NCBI RefSeq assembly: GCF_002088945.1
Contig: NZ_NCSU01000011.1
Coordinates: forward strand, 62,001 to 126,000
Length of the DNA stretch: 64,000 nucleotides
Direction: 5' to 3'
Source: Henriciella pelagia
GTDB lineage: Bacteria > Pseudomonadota > Alphaproteobacteria > Caulobacterales > Hyphomonadaceae
Of this stretch, positions 45 to 62,823 are shown one piece after another (within the stretch, counting starts at the first letter, position 1; every line of letters begins with the position of its first letter). The notes beneath the pieces are model-generated. The model was not told where the DNA came from. It saw only the letters and a list, made by a program, of their open reading frames with translations, and searched no databases. A program made the position numbers and the translations under genes.

Positions 45-58
45 TATCGTTAACGATA
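45..58. promoter_or_regulatory. 14-bp perfect palindrome upstream of csgF (candidate operator)
   Basis: The sequence TATCGTTAACGATA reads identically on both strands. It lies just upstream of a -35-like hexamer (67-72) and about 115 bp before the csgF start, in AT-rich DNA that contrasts with the surrounding GC-rich coding sequence. A palindrome in this position would suit a dimeric regulator of the curli operon. Its right half also forms part of TTAA-N7-TTAT (50-64), a near match to a CtrA-type TTAA-N7-TTAA site. The protein that binds it is unknown. Confidence 0.45.
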
Positions 59-66
59 GTTTATAA

Positions 67-95
67 TTGACGAATTGTTAATCCTTGGTAATGTT
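67..95 (+). promoter_or_regulatory. Candidate promoter of the curli operon
   Basis: TTGACG at 67-72 matches five of six bases of the sigma-70 -35 consensus. A weak -10-like element (TAATGT, 89-94) follows after 16 bases. This is the only promoter-like arrangement seen between the window start and csgF, and no comparable element was found inside the tightly spaced csg genes that follow. The -10 match is poor, so the exact start of transcription is uncertain. Confidence 0.35.
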
Positions 96-174
96 ACGGC
101 GATGCGTGCAGCGGTGTGGGGACACCGCAGCCTAGATGGTCTGGGCAGGCACGTTGTAGATACGGGGACGCTCA

Positions 175-735
175 ATGAGGGGACGCCTTTCAGCAGCATT
201 GCTGTCTACCGCAATCGCTACAGTACTCGGTTTATCCGCTTCCGCACAGGAACTTGTTTACGAGCCAATCAATCCTTCCTTCGGGGGCGACAGCTTCAAT
301 TCATCTCACCTTCTTGGCATCGCCAACGCCCAGAACGATTATCGCGATCCTGACCAGCAGAAGAATGCGGCCAGCCAGTCAGAGCAATTCGTCCGGCAGC
401 TGCAGAGCCGCCTTCTGTCTTCGCTTGCCGGCGAAGTAAATGAGGCGATTTTCGGTGATAACCCACAGGATTCCGGGACAATCACTTTTGGTGATCAGAT
501 TATCGAGTTCTATCGCGGGCTTGATTCAGTTCAGTTGACGATCACTGATCTCACGACAGGAGCGATCACTGAAATTGAGGTCCCATTACTTTATGCTGGT
601 GGCGCGGTAAGCGGGGCCAGTCCAACCAGTCTTGGCGCCATGAGCGGCCTTTATGGCGACGAGGCCGGCCAGTCTGGCGATATTCTTGATCCTTCAATCA
701 CCGGTGATGCCGGCTCAGATTCGGGGATCTACTAG
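175..735 (+). CDS. csgF: Curli production assembly/transport component CsgF
   Basis: CsgF is the secreted partner that caps the CsgG outer-membrane pore and couples curlin export to nucleation at the cell surface. The 186-aa protein has an N-terminal signal peptide, with cleavage likely after SASA (residue 24). It then shows the family hallmark NPSFGG and a following AQNDYRDP, which correspond to NPNFGG and AQNSYKDP of E. coli CsgF as recalled. In E. coli this N-terminal segment inserts into the CsgG channel. The C-terminal 40 residues are Gly/Ser/Asp-rich and extend beyond the usual family length. The ATG at 175 follows a GGGGAC ribosome site, and csgG begins two bases after the stop codon. 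Family assignment is confident. Confidence 0.93.
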   Translation: MRGRLSAALLSTAIATVLGLSASAQELVYEPINPSFGGDSFNSSHLLGIANAQNDYRDPDQQKNAASQSEQFVRQLQSRLLSSLAGEVNEAIFGDNPQDSGTITFGDQIIEFYRGLDSVQLTITDLTTGAITEIEVPLLYAGGAVSGASPTSLGAMSGLYGDEAGQSGDILDPSITGDAGSDSGIY

Positions 736-736
736 G

Positions 737-2149
737 ATGTGGGGATATCTGAAGGTTTCATCGTTTGCTGCGATTGCAGCAACGTTCCTGGCAGCTTGTA
801 CGACGACGACTGACGCAATGCAGTCCATCGTCAACGAGCCTGCCATTTCTGAAGTTGTGACCGAAACACAGTCTTCGCTTCGCGCGCTTCCACCTCCGCG
901 TGAGCGCGCTGCTGTCGCTGTATACAGCTTCGAGGACCAGACGGGGCAGTTCAAGCCGACATCCGGCGTTCAGACGCTGTCTAAGGCGGTCACACAGGGG
1001 GCAACGTCTGTCCTGCTGAAGGCACTGCAGGATGCTGGCAACCGGTCCTGGTTCACGGTCATTGAGCGGGAAAATCTGGATAACTTGCTCAAGGAGCGCC
1101 AGATCATCCGTGAAATGCGCCGGCAATATCTTGGCGAAGAGGATGTCAACGAAGCGGCCCTGCCTCCTCTGCTGTTCGCAGGCATAATTCTGGAAGGCGG
1201 TATTATCGGATATGATTCCAATACCGTAACAGGCGGTGCTGGCGCGCGCTTTCTCGGTATTGGCGCGCATGCGAATTACCGTGAAGACAAGGTGACCGTG
1301 TATCTGCGCGCGGTGAGCGTGAAGACGGGTGAGGTGATCACCACTGTGGTTGCCTCCAAGAAGATCGCGTCGGTCGGCGTTGCGTCAAACGTATTCCGCT
1401 ATGTTGCCTTCAAGGAGCTGCTGGAAGTCGACACGGGCATCACGACGAATGAACCGGACCTGCTTGCGCTCCGCCAGGCAACGGAAAAGGCCGTCGAGCT
1501 GCTGATCCTTGAAGGCGCCGATCTCGGGGTGTGGGGGTTTGCCGACCGTGTCGCGGGCGCTGACATTCTGGAGCAGTACCGCGCAGAACGTGATGGCGTG
1601 TTTGACGACATTGAATCGGCCTACGCATCCCGTGTCTCCAGCCCTGTCGAGCAGGCTGCTGTTTCGGACGAGGTCACCCGGTCCGTGAGTGCGCCGCCAG
1701 CCCGGGAACGCCGTGCACCTTCGCAGTCGTCCGCACCTGCAGAGCCGGAGGTGCCGACGTCCGGCAATGACCCGGCAGATGGAGTATTACCGTCCAGTAT
1801 GACGCTGAACAAGCCAATCGCGAGCCGTGACCGGCGCGCCATGCTGAGCCTCAGCAACAGTAATTTCCTGCCTCAGAACCGTATGCTCGCCAGAGCGACC
1901 AATACCGCGTTCCGCAAGCAGGACCAAGTCGCCGCGCAGACCATCTCCGCGGTAGCAGCGGCCGTCGGACCAGTCACGCAAGGGGACGGCGAAGACGGAC
2001 TGATGGCCGCTGACTTTTATAATGCCGCTATCGCGAGCTTGCCGACGCTCAGTGGTTATCAACGTTCGATGGCCGAATTGGAAATATGGCGAGCAGCGCA
2101 AGCTGCTCATCGGGAGTCTGAGGAAGAATCGAATTTGAGAGGCGCGTAA
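737..2149 (+). CDS. csgG: Curli secretion channel CsgG, with C-terminal extension
   Basis: CsgG forms the nonameric outer-membrane pore that exports curlin subunits. This start gives a lipoprotein signal peptide with lipobox LAAC (Cys21). An upstream in-frame ATG at 653 lies inside csgF and would destroy the signal peptide. The CsgG domain spans about residues 55-270 and is strikingly conserved in the transmembrane-hairpin region (GYDSN, GGAGAR, LGIGA, TSK-like ASKKI, TNEP, GVWGF). The family is usually about 260-280 aa, whereas this one is 470. Residues from about 300 add a Pro/Ser/Glu-rich linker and a helical Ala/Gln-rich tail not seen in E. coli CsgG. The constriction loop after QFKP also differs from the Y-P-A-S-N-F of E. 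coli (from memory). Family assignment is strong; the role of the extension is unknown. Confidence 0.92.
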   Translation: MWGYLKVSSFAAIAATFLAACTTTTDAMQSIVNEPAISEVVTETQSSLRALPPPRERAAVAVYSFEDQTGQFKPTSGVQTLSKAVTQGATSVLLKALQDAGNRSWFTVIERENLDNLLKERQIIREMRRQYLGEEDVNEAALPPLLFAGIILEGGIIGYDSNTVTGGAGARFLGIGAHANYREDKVTVYLRAVSVKTGEVITTVVASKKIASVGVASNVFRYVAFKELLEVDTGITTNEPDLLALRQATEKAVELLILEGADLGVWGFADRVAGADILEQYRAERDGVFDDIESAYASRVSSPVEQAAVSDEVTRSVSAPPARERRAPSQSSAPAEPEVPTSGNDPADGVLPSSMTLNKPIASRDRRAMLSLSNSNFLPQNRMLARATNTAFRKQDQVAAQTISAVAAAVGPVTQGDGEDGLMAADFYNAAIASLPTLSGYQRSMAELEIWRAAQAAHRESEEESNLRGA

Positions 2150-2206
2150 TGCGTCGTTCAGGCCCGCCCAGGGGACAGCAACAAGATTGGGCGGTTGGTG
2201 AAGGGG

Positions 2207-2223
2207 GCTCGCCATTCGCGAGC
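2207..2223 (+). other. Intercistronic hairpin between csgG and the first curlin gene
   Basis: GCTCGC and GCGAGC form a 6-bp GC-rich stem around a 5-base loop in the 98-bp gap before the first curlin gene. No T-run follows, so it is not a classical terminator. It could act as an RNA-stability or processing element that lets curlin mRNA accumulate above csgFG mRNA. That role is inference only. Confidence 0.3.
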
Positions 2224-2247
2224 TGAGCGAAGTTAAAGGAGTAGATC

Positions 2248-3651
2248 ATGCGCAAACACCTTCTATTGGGAGCTTCAGTCGCTCTCGTGTTGGCCGCGCC
2301 TGCATTCGCGAATGAGTCTGATGTTAGTCAGTCCGGTTCGTCGCAGACGGCGACCGTGGTGCAGACTGGGGGCACGTCTGGCAATTCGGACATCACGCAA
2401 GCTGGTATCGACAACGAAGCAACCATCACGCAGGGCGATAATGGCGATCCGTTTGTCGCGACCCTGAATGACAGCGAAATCGATCAGCATGGTCTTCGCA
2501 ATACAGCGAACGTGACCCAGTACAGCACGGGCACCGCAGGCGCGGATGCGAACACATCCTACCTCGAGCAGGATGGCGACGATGATATCGCCGATGTCCT
2601 GCAGAATGGCACCGGCAACGATTCCGACATCTATCAGAACGATGCCAGCGTCGGCACGATCGACGTAGACCAGTTCGGCATGGGCAACGCATCTGCCGTC
2701 GACCAGACGGGCGATGGCGGCATCGTCACGGTAGAACAGGGGCTTGCCAATCCGGGGGCGGATGGCAACTCTTCGATCGTGAACCAATATGGTGGCCTCA
2801 ATCAGGCAACCATCTCCCAGGAAGATTCGGGCAACATCTCCGATGTCATGCAAAGCGGCGCCGAAAGCCTTGTTCTGGTTGATCAGTCGGGCTCTGCAAA
2901 CACCGCTGACATCGACCAGGACGGCTATGCGAGCTCGATTGTCGACGTCACACAGATCTCGACGAGTGCGATTGGCAGCTCGGCCTTCCTGTTCCAGGAT
3001 GGCGCATCGGGTTCGACGCTCACCGTCATGCAGATCGGCGGTGAAAATACCATCGGAGAAAGCCTGACGCCGTTCACCCAGACAAGCGCGAACTCTGCCG
3101 TAGACCTTACGCAGATCGGTACCGGCAACTCCATCGTTGGATCTCAGGGTGCGAACAATAATGCGATGTCCGTCTCGCAATCAGGCGAGAAGAACTCGGC
3201 GACGGTTGCTCAGGTCACGGACAACAACACGATGACCGTCAATCAGACCGGCGCCTATAATGTCTCGTACACCGAGCAGAATGGCGAGAACCTGAAGATG
3301 ACGCTGGATCAGTCCGGTACTGGCCTGAACTCGGCGACCATTCTGCAGAGCGGTAATCTCAATGAGATGATCGTTATGCAGGACGGCACCTCCAATTCGG
3401 CTGATATCAAGCAGAAAGGCGACAACAACTCGCTCGATGTTGATACGCTCGGTGCCGACAACAGGGTGTATGTCGAACAGGGTGACGGTTCCAACCTGAT
3501 CGAGATCGACCAGGATTCGGATGGCTCGAATGCTCGCATCTTCCAGGGTGGGGGCAATGGCAACGAAGCCTACGTTACCCAGACCACGGATGGGTCATTC
3601 TCATATGTGTTCCAGAACGGTTGGTCGAACTACGCCAATGTGAGCCAATAG
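2248..3651 (+). CDS. Large acidic curlin-repeat protein (major-subunit candidate)
   Basis: This is a secreted amyloid-type protein of 467 aa with a clean signal peptide (MRKH start, cleavage after APAFA, residue 21). Almost the whole mature chain is degenerate curlin repeat: short strands ending in Gln (SDVSQ, ATVVQ, SDITQ and so on) separated by Gly/Asn/Asp turns. I count about 38 Gln-ended strands by eye, roughly 19 units of about 22 residues, against five in E. coli CsgA. Turns are rich in Asp and Glu and poor in Arg/Lys, so the protein is strongly acidic. It ends exactly on a strand, ANVSQ. A strong ribosome site (AAAGGAG) precedes the ATG. Export through CsgG/CsgF encoded upstream is inferred from context. 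It could be the CsgA-like structural subunit, but the repeat number is unusual. Confidence 0.85.
   Translation: MRKHLLLGASVALVLAAPAFANESDVSQSGSSQTATVVQTGGTSGNSDITQAGIDNEATITQGDNGDPFVATLNDSEIDQHGLRNTANVTQYSTGTAGADANTSYLEQDGDDDIADVLQNGTGNDSDIYQNDASVGTIDVDQFGMGNASAVDQTGDGGIVTVEQGLANPGADGNSSIVNQYGGLNQATISQEDSGNISDVMQSGAESLVLVDQSGSANTADIDQDGYASSIVDVTQISTSAIGSSAFLFQDGASGSTLTVMQIGGENTIGESLTPFTQTSANSAVDLTQIGTGNSIVGSQGANNNAMSVSQSGEKNSATVAQVTDNNTMTVNQTGAYNVSYTEQNGENLKMTLDQSGTGLNSATILQSGNLNEMIVMQDGTSNSADIKQKGDNNSLDVDTLGADNRVYVEQGDGSNLIEIDQDSDGSNARIFQGGGNGNEAYVTQTTDGSFSYVFQNGWSNYANVSQ
2311..3651 (+). repeat. Degenerate curlin repeat array, large curlin protein
   Basis: This is a coding repeat array with a period of about 33 bp per strand and about 66 bp per full unit. 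It is conserved at protein level (hydrophobic strand ending in Gln, then a Gly/Asn/Asp turn) but strongly diverged in DNA. Neighbouring units share only short stretches such as CAGATCGG or GGCAAC. The divergence suggests old duplication with selection on the fold rather than recent expansion. Confidence 0.75.
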
Positions 3652-3698
3652 TCAGGAGTTGATCCGGCTCAAGGGGCCGGGTTCTGGGAAAAGCTCTG

Positions 3699-4793
3699 AT
3701 GAAACATTTCCTTGCCTCTGCTATCGCGGTCGCTGCCTTTGCAGCGCCCGCGTGGTCGCAAGGCGATGTTCCGGTCGAATACCAGAATGCGGCGATGGTT
3801 GAGCAGATCGGTTCGGTGAACGAAGCAATCGTCAATCAGCGCTGGCTTTTCGAAACCGACGCTCGTTCTCTCGCCTCGGTCACGCAAGCCGGTCTGCACA
3901 ACTCTGCGCGTGTCCTTCAGCGAAACCTGATGAGAAACGTTGCGGACGACTTCAACAACAAGGCCCGCATATACCAGCGTTCGCGCTGGAGCGCGGCCAC
4001 GGTCCGCCAGACGCACGACTATGCGGCGCTGAGCGCCAACAGGGCGAGGATCCATCAACGCACAGATGACGCAGTCTCAAAGACTTCGCAGCGGGGCGAC
4101 GGCAACGTGTCGGTCATCCGCCAGACGGCGGCGGCCTTCAGCCCGGTCGCGAAGTCGCGGCAGAATGGTATCAATAATTTCATCGATATCTTGCAGGAGA
4201 GCTTTGGCGGAACCGTCATCGTGTCTCAAGACAGTTTCCTTGATGCAGATGAGACGGATTCGGCCGACGCAGTCGCTCCGCCGCTACCCAATGCGATCGA
4301 TAATGAAGCGACCGTCGTGTCGCGTGGCCTTAATCCGACGGTGAGGGTCAAGCAGACGGGGCAATTGAATTTCGCGGATGTTCGCGAGGGAGGAATCGAT
4401 GGCTGGATCACCATCAGGACTGACGCTTTCGCCAATCTGGCCACTGTCGATCAGTACAGTGTGACTGGCGTTGCCGCGATTGAACAGATCGGCGGTGACG
4501 TGAACAATGCCAGCATCTGGCAAGACAGTTCGGATTTTGCCAGTGAGGCCTTGATTGAGCAGTCCGGAATTGGAGGGCAGTCCAGCATCATCCAGTTGGA
4601 CACCGACGGCCTCGGTGGAGAAAACTCCGCAAGTTCAAGGCAATCGGGCGCGAACTGGGTGTCGGACCTGATCAGCTCGACCATACTGCAGGATGGAACC
4701 GGCAATGTGGCAGTTGTCGATCAAAGTTCCGGTGTTGCCGTATCAACCATTGAACAGCTCGGTTCGTCGCACACAGCGAATGTAAGCCAATAG
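3699..4793 (+). CDS. Arg-rich curlin-repeat protein (CsgB-like nucleator candidate)
   Basis: This is a 364-aa secreted protein with a signal peptide ending near APAWS (residue 20) and curlin-type strands through most of its length (AMVEQIG, ASVTQAG, ATVDQ, AVVDQ). The first third carries many Arg residues within the strands (ARVLQR, ARIYQR, ARIHQR), unlike the acidic paralogue upstream. Around residues 180-200 an Asp/Pro-rich insertion separates two repeat blocks. The chain stops on ANVSQ, the same ending as the upstream protein. E. coli CsgB, the surface nucleator, is also distinguished from CsgA by basic repeats, so a nucleator role is a reasonable inference but is not shown by sequence. 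The start follows GGGAAAAG and sits 47 bp after the preceding gene. Confidence 0.8.
   Translation: MKHFLASAIAVAAFAAPAWSQGDVPVEYQNAAMVEQIGSVNEAIVNQRWLFETDARSLASVTQAGLHNSARVLQRNLMRNVADDFNNKARIYQRSRWSAATVRQTHDYAALSANRARIHQRTDDAVSKTSQRGDGNVSVIRQTAAAFSPVAKSRQNGINNFIDILQESFGGTVIVSQDSFLDADETDSADAVAPPLPNAIDNEATVVSRGLNPTVRVKQTGQLNFADVREGGIDGWITIRTDAFANLATVDQYSVTGVAAIEQIGGDVNNASIWQDSSDFASEALIEQSGIGGQSSIIQLDTDGLGGENSASSRQSGANWVSDLISSTILQDGTGNVAVVDQSSGVAVSTIEQLGSSHTANVSQ
3780..4793 (+). repeat. Curlin repeat array, Arg-rich protein
   Basis: Gln-ended strand and turn units cover about residues 28-364, interrupted near residues 180-200 by a non-repeat Asp/Pro-rich stretch. The DNA is heavily diverged between units, so only the protein-level pattern reveals the periodicity. 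Confidence 0.65.
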
Positions 4794-4808
4794 CTAGGGG
4801 ACACGCGA

Positions 4809-5405
4809 ATGAACGCCTTCTATCCGACAGCGATCCGGTTCTTCTCCGCGGGCCTGTCAGCCTTCCTGTTGTCTGGGTCCGTTGCCTTTGGGCATGGAGA
4901 AAAGGGTGGAGACCATGATGACGGCTCCAGGTCCGAATATGAGGTCCTCAGTCAGGACCCGTATGAAGCCCTGATCGACAAGGATTTTGACAGGCGTCGT
5001 AATGACCCTGACGAAGGTTTCAGCTTCGACCGGTCTGCGGTCGACTATCAGTCTTTCGACAATGGACCTGGCAACACCGCCATCATCGTCCAGAAGGGAG
5101 ACGGCAATAGGGTGAGCGCTGTTCAGAGCGGCGATGACAATCTCCTGGTTTCTGTACAGCAATCTACTGGTGGGCCGAACCTGGCTGAAATCGTACAGTC
5201 GGGAAATGACAACGCTTCCGCGCTCCTGCAATATGGCGAGGACAATCTGTATTCGCTGGAACAGACCGGTCAGAACAACTGGTCTGAGGCGACCCAGTAT
5301 GGCAACCGCAACACCTTCGAGCACGTGCAAAAAGGGGACAATCTCGGTTTCGCGATTACGCAGTATGGTGAATCATCGATAAGAGTGACGCAGAGCGGGC
5401 ATTGA
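4809..5405 (+). CDS. Short curlin-repeat protein with His/Asp-rich N-terminus
   Basis: This is a 198-aa secreted protein. A signal peptide (about residues 1-28) is followed by a hydrophilic, charged segment of some 55 residues that opens with HGEKGGDHDD, and then by canonical curlin repeats from about residue 86. These repeats keep the QxGxxN spacing best of the three paralogues (QKGDGN, QSGDDN, QSGNDN, QYGEDN, QTGQNN, QYGNRN), so it is the closest to textbook CsgA/CsgB. The repeat domain has about five units, the E. coli number. It starts 15 bp after the Arg-rich gene with an AGGGGAC ribosome site and is 10 bp from the next gene, so it belongs to the same operon. Whether it is the fibre subunit or a minor component cannot be decided. 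Confidence 0.83.
   Translation: MNAFYPTAIRFFSAGLSAFLLSGSVAFGHGEKGGDHDDGSRSEYEVLSQDPYEALIDKDFDRRRNDPDEGFSFDRSAVDYQSFDNGPGNTAIIVQKGDGNRVSAVQSGDDNLLVSVQQSTGGPNLAEIVQSGNDNASALLQYGEDNLYSLEQTGQNNWSEATQYGNRNTFEHVQKGDNLGFAITQYGESSIRVTQSGH
5064..5402 (+). repeat. Canonical QxGxxN curlin repeats
   Basis: The C-terminal 113 residues consist of repeated hydrophobic strand, QxG and xN turn units at about 22-residue spacing. Gln, Gly and Asn positions are nearly invariant. This is the most regular curlin array in the window and anchors the family assignment of its two degenerate neighbours. Confidence 0.75.
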
Positions 5406-5415
5406 GAGGGAAACC

Positions 5416-5949
5416 ATGCGCCGATTTACGACCTTCGCCGTCCTCGCTGCTTTTTTTGCCGCACCCGTATTCGCGGATGGCGATGGACTGATTGGGCAGC
5501 TTGGCAGCAATCAGGATGCGACTGGCGAGCGCAGCAGTGCCTCGCTCAGCCAGATCGGAAAGCGCGCGGTTGAATCCGGTCGCCTGGTGGATCAGATCGA
5601 CGCGTCTCGGCCGTATCGAGCCAATATCGACGAATCCCGGGTCAGCGAAGTGCTGCCGTCTGACATCGACAGTGATGAGTGTCTGCTTACAACCCGGCAG
5701 GAAGCCGTGTTCGAATACCTGCGAGAAGAAGGGCGCGTGTTTCGCAACAATTGCGAAATGCTGAGCTGGCTGGATGGCAATGATGTGGATGAGCCATCGG
5801 AGCGCGATCTTTTCAATGTGATCTTCGGACCCGAGGCTCAACGGGTGAAGCAGGCGGAACTTGAGCGGCTTGAGCGAGAGCAGGCAGAGCTGGAGGCACG
5901 CGCCCGAATTCTCAATGCTATCAATAACGCTTCGTCAAATGACGGATAA
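5416..5949 (+). CDS. Curli-operon secreted protein, curlin-like N-terminus and coiled-coil tail
   Basis: This 177-aa protein belongs to no family I recognise. It has a signal peptide (cleavage after PVFA, residue 20). Residues 25-50 contain two curlin-like motifs (IGQLGSNQDA and SLSQIG), then comes a charged middle part. Two cysteines (C89, C113) flank a predicted helix, and a C-terminal stretch of about 35 residues alternates Glu/Arg/Leu (about 138-170), which looks like a coiled coil. It ends the csg operon, 10 bp after the last curlin gene, with a GAGAGGGAAA ribosome site. A repeat start joined to a non-amyloid tail suggests a cap, anchor or accessory protein that docks on curli. This is inference from architecture and position. 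Confidence 0.75.
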   Translation: MRRFTTFAVLAAFFAAPVFADGDGLIGQLGSNQDATGERSSASLSQIGKRAVESGRLVDQIDASRPYRANIDESRVSEVLPSDIDSDECLLTTRQEAVFEYLREEGRVFRNNCEMLSWLDGNDVDEPSERDLFNVIFGPEAQRVKQAELERLEREQAELEARARILNAINNASSNDG

Positions 5950-61707: not shown

Positions 61708-62823
61708 TCAGCCATCCTCGCGATAGGCAATGACGGTAAGGCTGGCGAACAGGGCAAACAGGGCAGGGGACCATGCTGCAATAACGGGTGGCAATGCGCC
61801 TGTCGCGCCGAGGCTGGACGAGAACTGCATGATGAAAAACACCCCCATCGCCGACAGCGCGCCGATCGCCACAAGCTGGCTTGTGCCGCCCAGCCGCGAC
61901 AGCCTCAGGCAGACGATGGCACCAATCAGCGCCATGGATGTGTAGAAGACGGGGATAGCCGTCAGGCTGAAGAAACGGACGCGGAAGCGCGACGTATCGA
62001 GACCGGCCTTCCCGGTCTGCTGGATGAACCCGGGCAGGCGCCAGAAACCGATCGTGCTTGGTGACACAAAACGGTCCAGCAGAGTATCGGGATCAAGGTC
62101 GGTAGGAATGGCGAGGCTGGGCAGCCGCTCGGGCGGCGACCCTGGAATATTCTCCACAATGTTTTCGATCTGCCAGAAGCCATCGATGATGCGGGCCCGT
62201 TCGGCATCAATCCGGCGGACGAAGTTGAAACGCTGGGTGGGGCGGCCATCGACGAAGACCCGGCCTTCCTCCAGCAGTTTCACATTCTCGAAGACCTGGC
62301 CCGTACTGTCGACGGACTCTGCATGGATCACGATCTGCGTATTCCCGTCGCCTTGCCGCAGCCAGACATCCGTGCGGCTGGAATCAGGCTGCACGCCGCC
62401 GGACATCAGGATCGCGTTTCGCGTTTCCTCGAACTGGTTTGAAAGGCGCGAGCCAAGCGGGTTCAGCACGCCGACCGCAAACAGACCAAGCAGGACAGAC
62501 ATCACAATGAGCGGCTGCAGGAACTGCCAGGCCGACATGCCCGTCGCGCGAATGACCGACAGTTCCGAGCGTTTGTTGAGCCGGCTGAATGCCATCATCG
62601 CCGCGACAAGGATCGCGAATGGCAGGGTCTCCTCGATCAGTCCGGGAAGCTTCATCGCAGAAAGCTGCACGGCCTGCATTGGAGACAGGTCGACGTCTCC
62701 GCCCACCGTGCGCAGCTGCTCGACAACATCGACCAGCAGGATGGTCACGACAAAAATCGTGATCACCAGGGCGAGGCTGGTCACGCACTGCATGAAGATG
62801 TAGCGCTGGATCCGGTTGAGCAT
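61708..62823 (-). CDS. lptG: LPS export permease LptG
   Basis: LptG is one of two permeases of the LptB2FG complex that extracts lipopolysaccharide from the inner membrane. The 371-aa protein starts MLNRIQRYIFMQ, with six transmembrane helices in two groups of three around a periplasmic domain (about residues 125-265). Family signatures are LPGLIEETLPFAILVAAMMAFSRLN (partly quoted as LPFAILVAAM) and ELSVIRATGMSAWQ. The ATG overlaps the lptF stop (ATGA). LptB is not in the window. Confidence 0.93.
   Translation of the reverse strand: MLNRIQRYIFMQCVTSLALVITIFVVTILLVDVVEQLRTVGGDVDLSPMQAVQLSAMKLPGLIEETLPFAILVAAMMAFSRLNKRSELSVIRATGMSAWQFLQPLIVMSVLLGLFAVGVLNPLGSRLSNQFEETRNAILMSGGVQPDSSRTDVWLRQGDGNTQIVIHAESVDSTGQVFENVKLLEEGRVFVDGRPTQRFNFVRRIDAERARIIDGFWQIENIVENIPGSPPERLPSLAIPTDLDPDTLLDRFVSPSTIGFWRLPGFIQQTGKAGLDTSRFRVRFFSLTAIPVFYTSMALIGAIVCLRLSRLGGTSQLVAIGALSAMGVFFIMQFSSSLGATGALPPVIAAWSPALFALFASLTVIAYREDG

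Follow-up and report, generated by a model that had tools for sequence, protein, structure and literature searches.

A curli locus of Henriciella pelagia bears on the question of how aggregation-prone curlins are guarded and exported without CsgE in Alphaproteobacteria. The locus was analyzed within a stretch of 64,000 nucleotides (positions 62,001 to 126,000 of contig NZ_NCSU01000011.1, assembly GCF_002088945.1), called the window below. Six genes of the same direction, arranged in the order csgF-csgG-curlin A-curlin B-curlin C-p6, occupy positions 175-5949. Judging from their sequences, they probably form a single-operon type VIII (curli) system which makes an extracellular amyloid fibre, with no detectable CsgE or CsgH and no adjacent CsgD. 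Gene content, protein families, the modelled fold of curlin B and conservation are the basis of this reading, and the roles assigned beyond them we infer. Related genomes and loci are designated by G and L numbers, H. pelagia being G000; g5 is a second genus.

Gene content of the operon

From csgF to p6 the genes are separated by 1, 98, 47, 15 and 10 bp. This layout, with its positions and spacings, had been read from the letters in an initial annotation, and the Pfam models of CsgF, CsgG and curlin, all over cut-off, confirm it (Table 1). The curlin profile hidden Markov model (PF07012, cut-off 20.7 bits) matches all three unequal curlins proposed there, the degenerate 364-residue protein included; a failure on the 467- and 364-residue proteins, which would have spoken against the proposal, was not observed. 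NCBIfam equivalogs for CsgF, CsgG, CsgA and CsgB also match in the operon, the cut-off being reached only by CsgA on curlin A (160.4 bits, cut-off 160). No further curlin match over cut-off is found elsewhere in the genome.

The repeats of the three curlins are not due to chance: two glutamines at a distance of 11 residues occur 24 times in curlin A, 12 times in curlin B and 7 times in curlin C, where 1000 shuffles gave on average 3.2, 2.0 and 1.0 such spacings. The Q/N/G motif with a period of about 22 residues, by which curlin-repeat subunits are recognized, is present in the operon.

Table 1. Features of the curli operon and of its leader region, in window coordinates (aa, amino acids).
Feature	Position	Strand	Description
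Palindrome TATCGTTAACGATA	45..58	.	Perfect, 14 bp; once in the window; possible operator, upstream of the promoter-like site
Promoter-like site TTGACG-16-TAATGT	67..94	+	TTGAC block similarly placed in the other three Henriciella leaders and in g5 leaders
Leader RNA three-way junction	104..154	+	Stems 104-109/149-154, 111-117/122-128 and 130-136/140-146; loop GGGG at 118-121
GGGGAC at the csgF ribosome-binding position	164..169	+	Second copy at 179-184, codons 2-4
csgF	175..735	+	186 aa; PF10614, E 3e-33, residues 16-137; about 49 residues past the profile match
csgG	737..2149	+	470 aa; lipoprotein secretion channel; PF03783, E 2.4e-56; C-terminal tail of about 190 residues
Curlin A	2248..3651	+	467 aa; about 39 half-repeats; strongly acidic; PF07012, 138.5 bits
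Curlin B	3699..4793	+	364 aa; repeats degenerate; no net negative charge in the N-half; PF07012, 42.9 bits
Curlin C	4809..5405	+	198 aa; about 5 repeats behind an acidic stretch of about 55 residues at the N-terminus; PF07012, 54.5 bits
p6 (sixth gene)	5416..5949	+	177 aa; signal-peptide-like start; cysteine pair C89/C113

Conservation and probable movement of the operon

CsgF is found in 12 of 61 relatives, the genome of H. pelagia included, in 7 of the 29 genomes of the genus, and in 41 of the 398 genomes of the order. The order csgF-csgG-A-B-C-p6 is shared by four Henriciella genomes (G000, G025, G019 and G020, the last without curlin B) and by four genomes of g5 (G068, G187, G331 and G312). 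The same gene order occurs in G027 and G006, where p6 is matched by position and cysteine spacing only. Conserved synteny, which had been named as a check, is observed in ten genomes of two genera, with the exceptions noted for G020, G027 and G006. The other readable operons of the order contain one to four curlins, often long; at 20 further loci, automated picking of open reading frames (ORFs) recovered csgF at 17 but overlooked some genes at several of them, and no census of operon types is drawn from them.

In a tree of CsgG sequences, the ten operons form one group (support 96/99), where the g5 operons of the six-gene type join those of Henriciella, apart from eight other g5 operons. By RpoB, in contrast, the ten sampled g5 genomes make up one clade (28 genomes, quick method; G312 and G331, with no RpoB match, are not in this tree). 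A CsgG topology holding all g5 operons together was rejected by the approximately unbiased (AU) test, with a p-AU of 0.0009 on 32 of 34 rows, the long rows G007 and G303 having been dropped. The two trees disagree, and the cassette therefore seems to have passed from one lineage to another; horizontal transfer is implied, or else ancient duplication followed by loss.

The three curlins

Curlin A is found by sequence search to resemble the solved CsgA structure 8c50 (E 3.3e-23), and its net charge is between -36 and -55 in all ten operons; it is likely to be the major subunit. The stacked beta-solenoid that the initial annotation proposed to model for each protein was obtained for curlin B, the curlin to which this result is confined: its AlphaFold2 model is a beta-solenoid, with CsgA as the nearest structure. 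The N-half of curlin B has a charge of +5 to -4 in seven of the nine operons containing it. Curlin C scores higher with the NCBIfam model of CsgB (47.9 bits) than with that of CsgA (36.3 bits), both far below cut-off, and may represent a CsgB-like nucleator. The C-terminus of curlin A falls exactly on a half-repeat glutamine in 10/10 orthologues of the operon type, and that of curlin B in 9/9, as is expected if the ends can dock. The ratio of non-synonymous to synonymous substitution rates (dN/dS) ranges from 0.06 to 0.47, staying below 0.5 wherever computable; since dS exceeds 1, the values are rough.

The differences among the three subunits in length, charge and repeat regularity would also suit a rather unlikely alternative, by which they build separate fibres for separate conditions and the operon merely shares a channel. 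CsgH is encoded at another place in the four g5 genomes that bear the six-gene operon (L052-L055) and, in the one examined (L053, 806-2292), lies between two short curlin genes; several kinds of curli per cell therefore do occur. Against separate fibres stand the organization in one tight operon, with gaps of 15 and 47 bp and a single csgF/csgG pair, and the exact half-repeat endings of A and B, which fit end docking.

The sixth protein and the CsgG tail

No Pfam match over cut-off was obtained for p6, searches of NCBIfam, PHROG and PDB sequences gave none, and the CsgH models of Pfam and NCBIfam do not match it. At the level of sequence, p6 makes up an orphan family marked by two paired cysteines: two cysteines and two glutamines are invariant in 10/10 aligned rows. 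By using a profile of the four Henriciella rows, 9 of the 398 genomes of the order were matched in total, the four g5 p6 at E-values of 1.2e-18 to 1.3e-16 and one weakly (0.009). This profile missed the p6-like proteins of G027 and G006, which have the position and the C-x23-C pair in common with the others, at 18 and 17% identity. A ten-row profile (A2), which recovers its own members by construction, gave E-values below 1e-10 in 11 of the 398 genomes, 10 of them with CsgF; the eleventh p6 genome, G023 (E 3.4e-20), carries p6 at a contig edge, and the inclusion of a weak match at 0.005 brings the number to 12. In addition, 13 operons of the order with a small cysteine-bearing last gene were picked by eye, and the seven of these genes that were scanned show no Pfam family over cut-off.

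CsgG carries a lipobox, read by eye, and matches the solved CsgG structure 3x2r with an E-value of 9.4e-52. Its alignment to the E. coli protein is limited to residues 13-282 of 470. The tail that follows is kept in 8/8 core operons of Henriciella and g5, and towards its end a -V[AT]Q- stretch is conserved. In L023, the last 60 residues or so of csgG look, by eye, out of frame with respect to the other Henriciella tails.

CsgE, CsgD, CsgH and the upstream DNA

The absence of a visible csgE, remarked on in the initial annotation, extends to the whole assembly, where no CsgE match is found up to an E-value of 1. The further suggestion that csgE or a regulator might lie just outside the window was not borne out by Pfam: in the nearest 6 kb, whose ORFs were listed, csgF is separated by 1.65 kb from the next upstream gene, a P450, and the three scanned of the four forward ORFs of at least 80 aa in this interval gave no Pfam match over cut-off, to csgE, csgD, csgH or any other family. 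None of 16 curli genomes has CsgE over cut-off, the E. coli control being positive; a single sub-threshold match, carrying stops, is seen in G068. CsgE is not required in Alphaproteobacteria, since it is absent from all of them according to PMC3521004. The best CsgH match in the genome of H. pelagia lies outside the operon, with 16.4 bits versus a cut-off of 27. For CsgD, a member of a very large family of proteins, the search was limited to the 1.65 kb upstream of csgF, where none was seen.

Among the relatives, LuxR-type regulators are located in or beside the curli operons of L028 (9590-10174) and L024 (3993-4682), as possible local stand-ins for CsgD. Beside a g5 operon (L047, 11675-15900) there are two SCO1/SenC genes together with genes for a cytochrome c and a beta-propeller protein. 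Another cytochrome c gene is near the operon of L024 (13431-14795), and ahead of csgF in L027 stands one that looks alike by eye. In H. pelagia itself, an ORF upstream of csgF (L002, 9817-10518) matches the P450 model of 462 positions over 267-425 only, and the gene may be truncated.

A predicted structured leader upstream of csgF

The DNA preceding csgF contains a putative promoter, TTGACG-16-TAATGT, recognized by its sequence and not picked up by a consensus scan. The palindrome upstream of it is not among the palindromes of at least 12 bp found before csgF in nine relatives examined.

The transcript that would follow is predicted to fold into a three-way junction, and the same junction is returned by RNAalifold. 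In a sample of only four related rows, those of Henriciella, 5 of 20 leader pairs change on both sides and 97.5% of the leader cells pair, and neither figure was reached by any of 500 shuffles; slid versions pair at 23-51%. Further pair types occur in an unremarkable number, reached by 192 of 500 shuffles. For the 87-nt leader, the z-score of the minimum free energy is -3.75 in the window, -1.2, -1.1 and -2.8 in the other three Henriciella and -1.9, -1.3 and -1.7 in three g5 leaders.

A covariance model was run over 37 sources. After the four training leaders, the four g5 leaders came next, at the equivalent place and with non-significant E-values of 0.19-0.45, followed by two matches elsewhere (0.75 and 2.4). 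The g5 leaders have GTGTGGGGAC in common, and their predicted folds differ from each other and from the Henriciella junction. The leader RNA is absent from G027 and G006, and Rfam gave no match to it up to an E-value of 5. Judging from Rfam and from a literature search, a structured leader RNA is not known from the curli operons of this group.

The GGGGAC copy at the ribosome site is present in all four Henriciella leaders and the codon copy in three, L026 having AGGGAC. The GGGGAC hairpin together with the ribosome-site copy brought CsrA control into consideration. It was rejected: CsrA (PF02599) is found in none of 18 genomes, the E. coli, B. subtilis and Thermotoga maritima controls of this search being positive.

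The compensatory changes of the leader RNA also bear on the idea that the operon is decaying and makes fibres no longer, which appears improbable. It could be invoked to explain the restriction of CsgF to 7 of the 29 genomes of the genus, the lack of curlin B in H. mobilis (G020) and the csgG end of L023. Against it, besides the leader, are the six open frames in the window, the preservation of the repeats and the dN/dS values reported above.

Proposed mechanism

In the curli system favoured here, CsgG would export unfolded curlins across the outer membrane and CsgF would couple the channel to nucleation, as their families suggest. Curlin A, a long and very acidic solenoid, would supply the bulk of the fibre. 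Curlin C, of CsgB size and with about five repeats, would probably serve as nucleator and be held by CsgF. Curlin B, with the same solenoid, irregular loops and an N-half lacking net negative charge, might act as a minor co-subunit and could cap, cross-link or space the A fibres. The heteropolymer with changed mechanics that the initial annotation suggested would be a possible outcome of such an assembly. The p6 protein would be a secreted accessory, perhaps one that guards curlins in the periplasm in place of CsgE or CsgH, a job that the CsgG tail may share.

Several observations weigh against parts of this scheme. The AlphaFold2 model of p6, with helices in residues 93-174, is poor (predicted local distance difference test, pLDDT, 60; predicted template-modelling score, pTM, 0.26), and none of the homologues found has a known function. 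The p6 profile also matches a curlin-like protein in L091 (2e-06), and a part of p6 may therefore just be similar to curlin repeats. Two of the ten operons (G027 and G006) have no long CsgG tail; the N-half of curlin B is acidic in the same two genomes (-15 and -10, respectively), which opposes a general charge bridge. Curlin B itself is missing from G020, and is thus not needed everywhere.

More tentatively, the operon may be a self-contained mobile cassette, where p6, with the CsgG tail, is a new accessory family taking the place of both CsgE and CsgH, while the leader RNA, through its GGGG loop and the GGGGAC echoes, is a cis-acting switch on csgF translation instead of a control of the CsgD type. 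The operon supplies, in p6 and the CsgG tail, a small conserved set of candidates for the guarding and export of curlins without CsgE. It also offers a natural curli system of three subunits that vary in length, charge and regularity, and, in the leader RNA, a direct handle on regulation where CsgD is not found.

Comparison with known systems

A complete hfaABD holdfast-anchor operon is present in the same genome (L035, 59-2779; G000:C15), with HfaA, HfaB and HfaD at 89.9, 416.4 and 188.2 bits, all over cut-off, and two CsgG-family surface systems hence coexist in one cell. That the curli locus is itself a second HfaABD-like anchor, binding polysaccharide to the cell, is very improbable: besides the presence of holdfast-anchor genes in the genome, it could appeal to the NCBIfam HfaB score of the operon CsgG, which is 27.6 bits against a cut-off of 300, and csgF is present while the true hfaABD operon lies elsewhere. 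The two systems are alike in having a CsgG-family channel and a secreted amyloid-like partner (PMC6707917); HfaABD differs in its subunit families, in anchoring polysaccharide and in having no adjoining CsgF, the genome containing a single CsgF match.

With the csgBAC/csgDEFG system of E. coli the operon shares the CsgG channel, CsgF and the curlin repeats. It differs in that no CsgE is found, CsgD is not adjacent, all genes are in one operon and the subunits have 198-467 aa instead of about 150. The csgA-csgH-csgB cassette of a g5 genome (L053) also associates curlin genes with a small secreted partner. CsgH is a seven-strand, two-sheet chaperone (PMC4838910), whereas p6 does not match it and has a C-terminal part that is poorly modelled as helices.

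The initial annotation took known curli systems to contain a single CsgA and a single CsgB, each about 150 aa long, and two papers contradict this. Dueholm et al. (2012; PMC3521004) describe alphaproteobacterial systems without csgC, csgD and csgE, in which CsgA reaches 529 aa and the csgA/B genes number as many as six; Sleutel et al. (2023; PMC10192328) report proteins with as many as 62 repeats, a class of degenerate repeats, copy numbers reaching 30 in a genome and heteromeric docking. Several or long csgA/B homologues and the lack of csgC, csgD and csgE are common to the present operon and to the alphaproteobacterial systems of PMC3521004, from which, as far as that text describes them, it differs in having three curlin classes in a fixed order, p6 for csgH, the CsgG tail and the leader RNA. 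In the open-licence literature, no paper was found on Henriciella curli or on curli with CsgG in Caulobacterales, nor any published description of p6, the CsgG tail or the leader RNA. The operon is a recognisable variant, in which these three parts are joined to large and multiple subunits of a kind already known.

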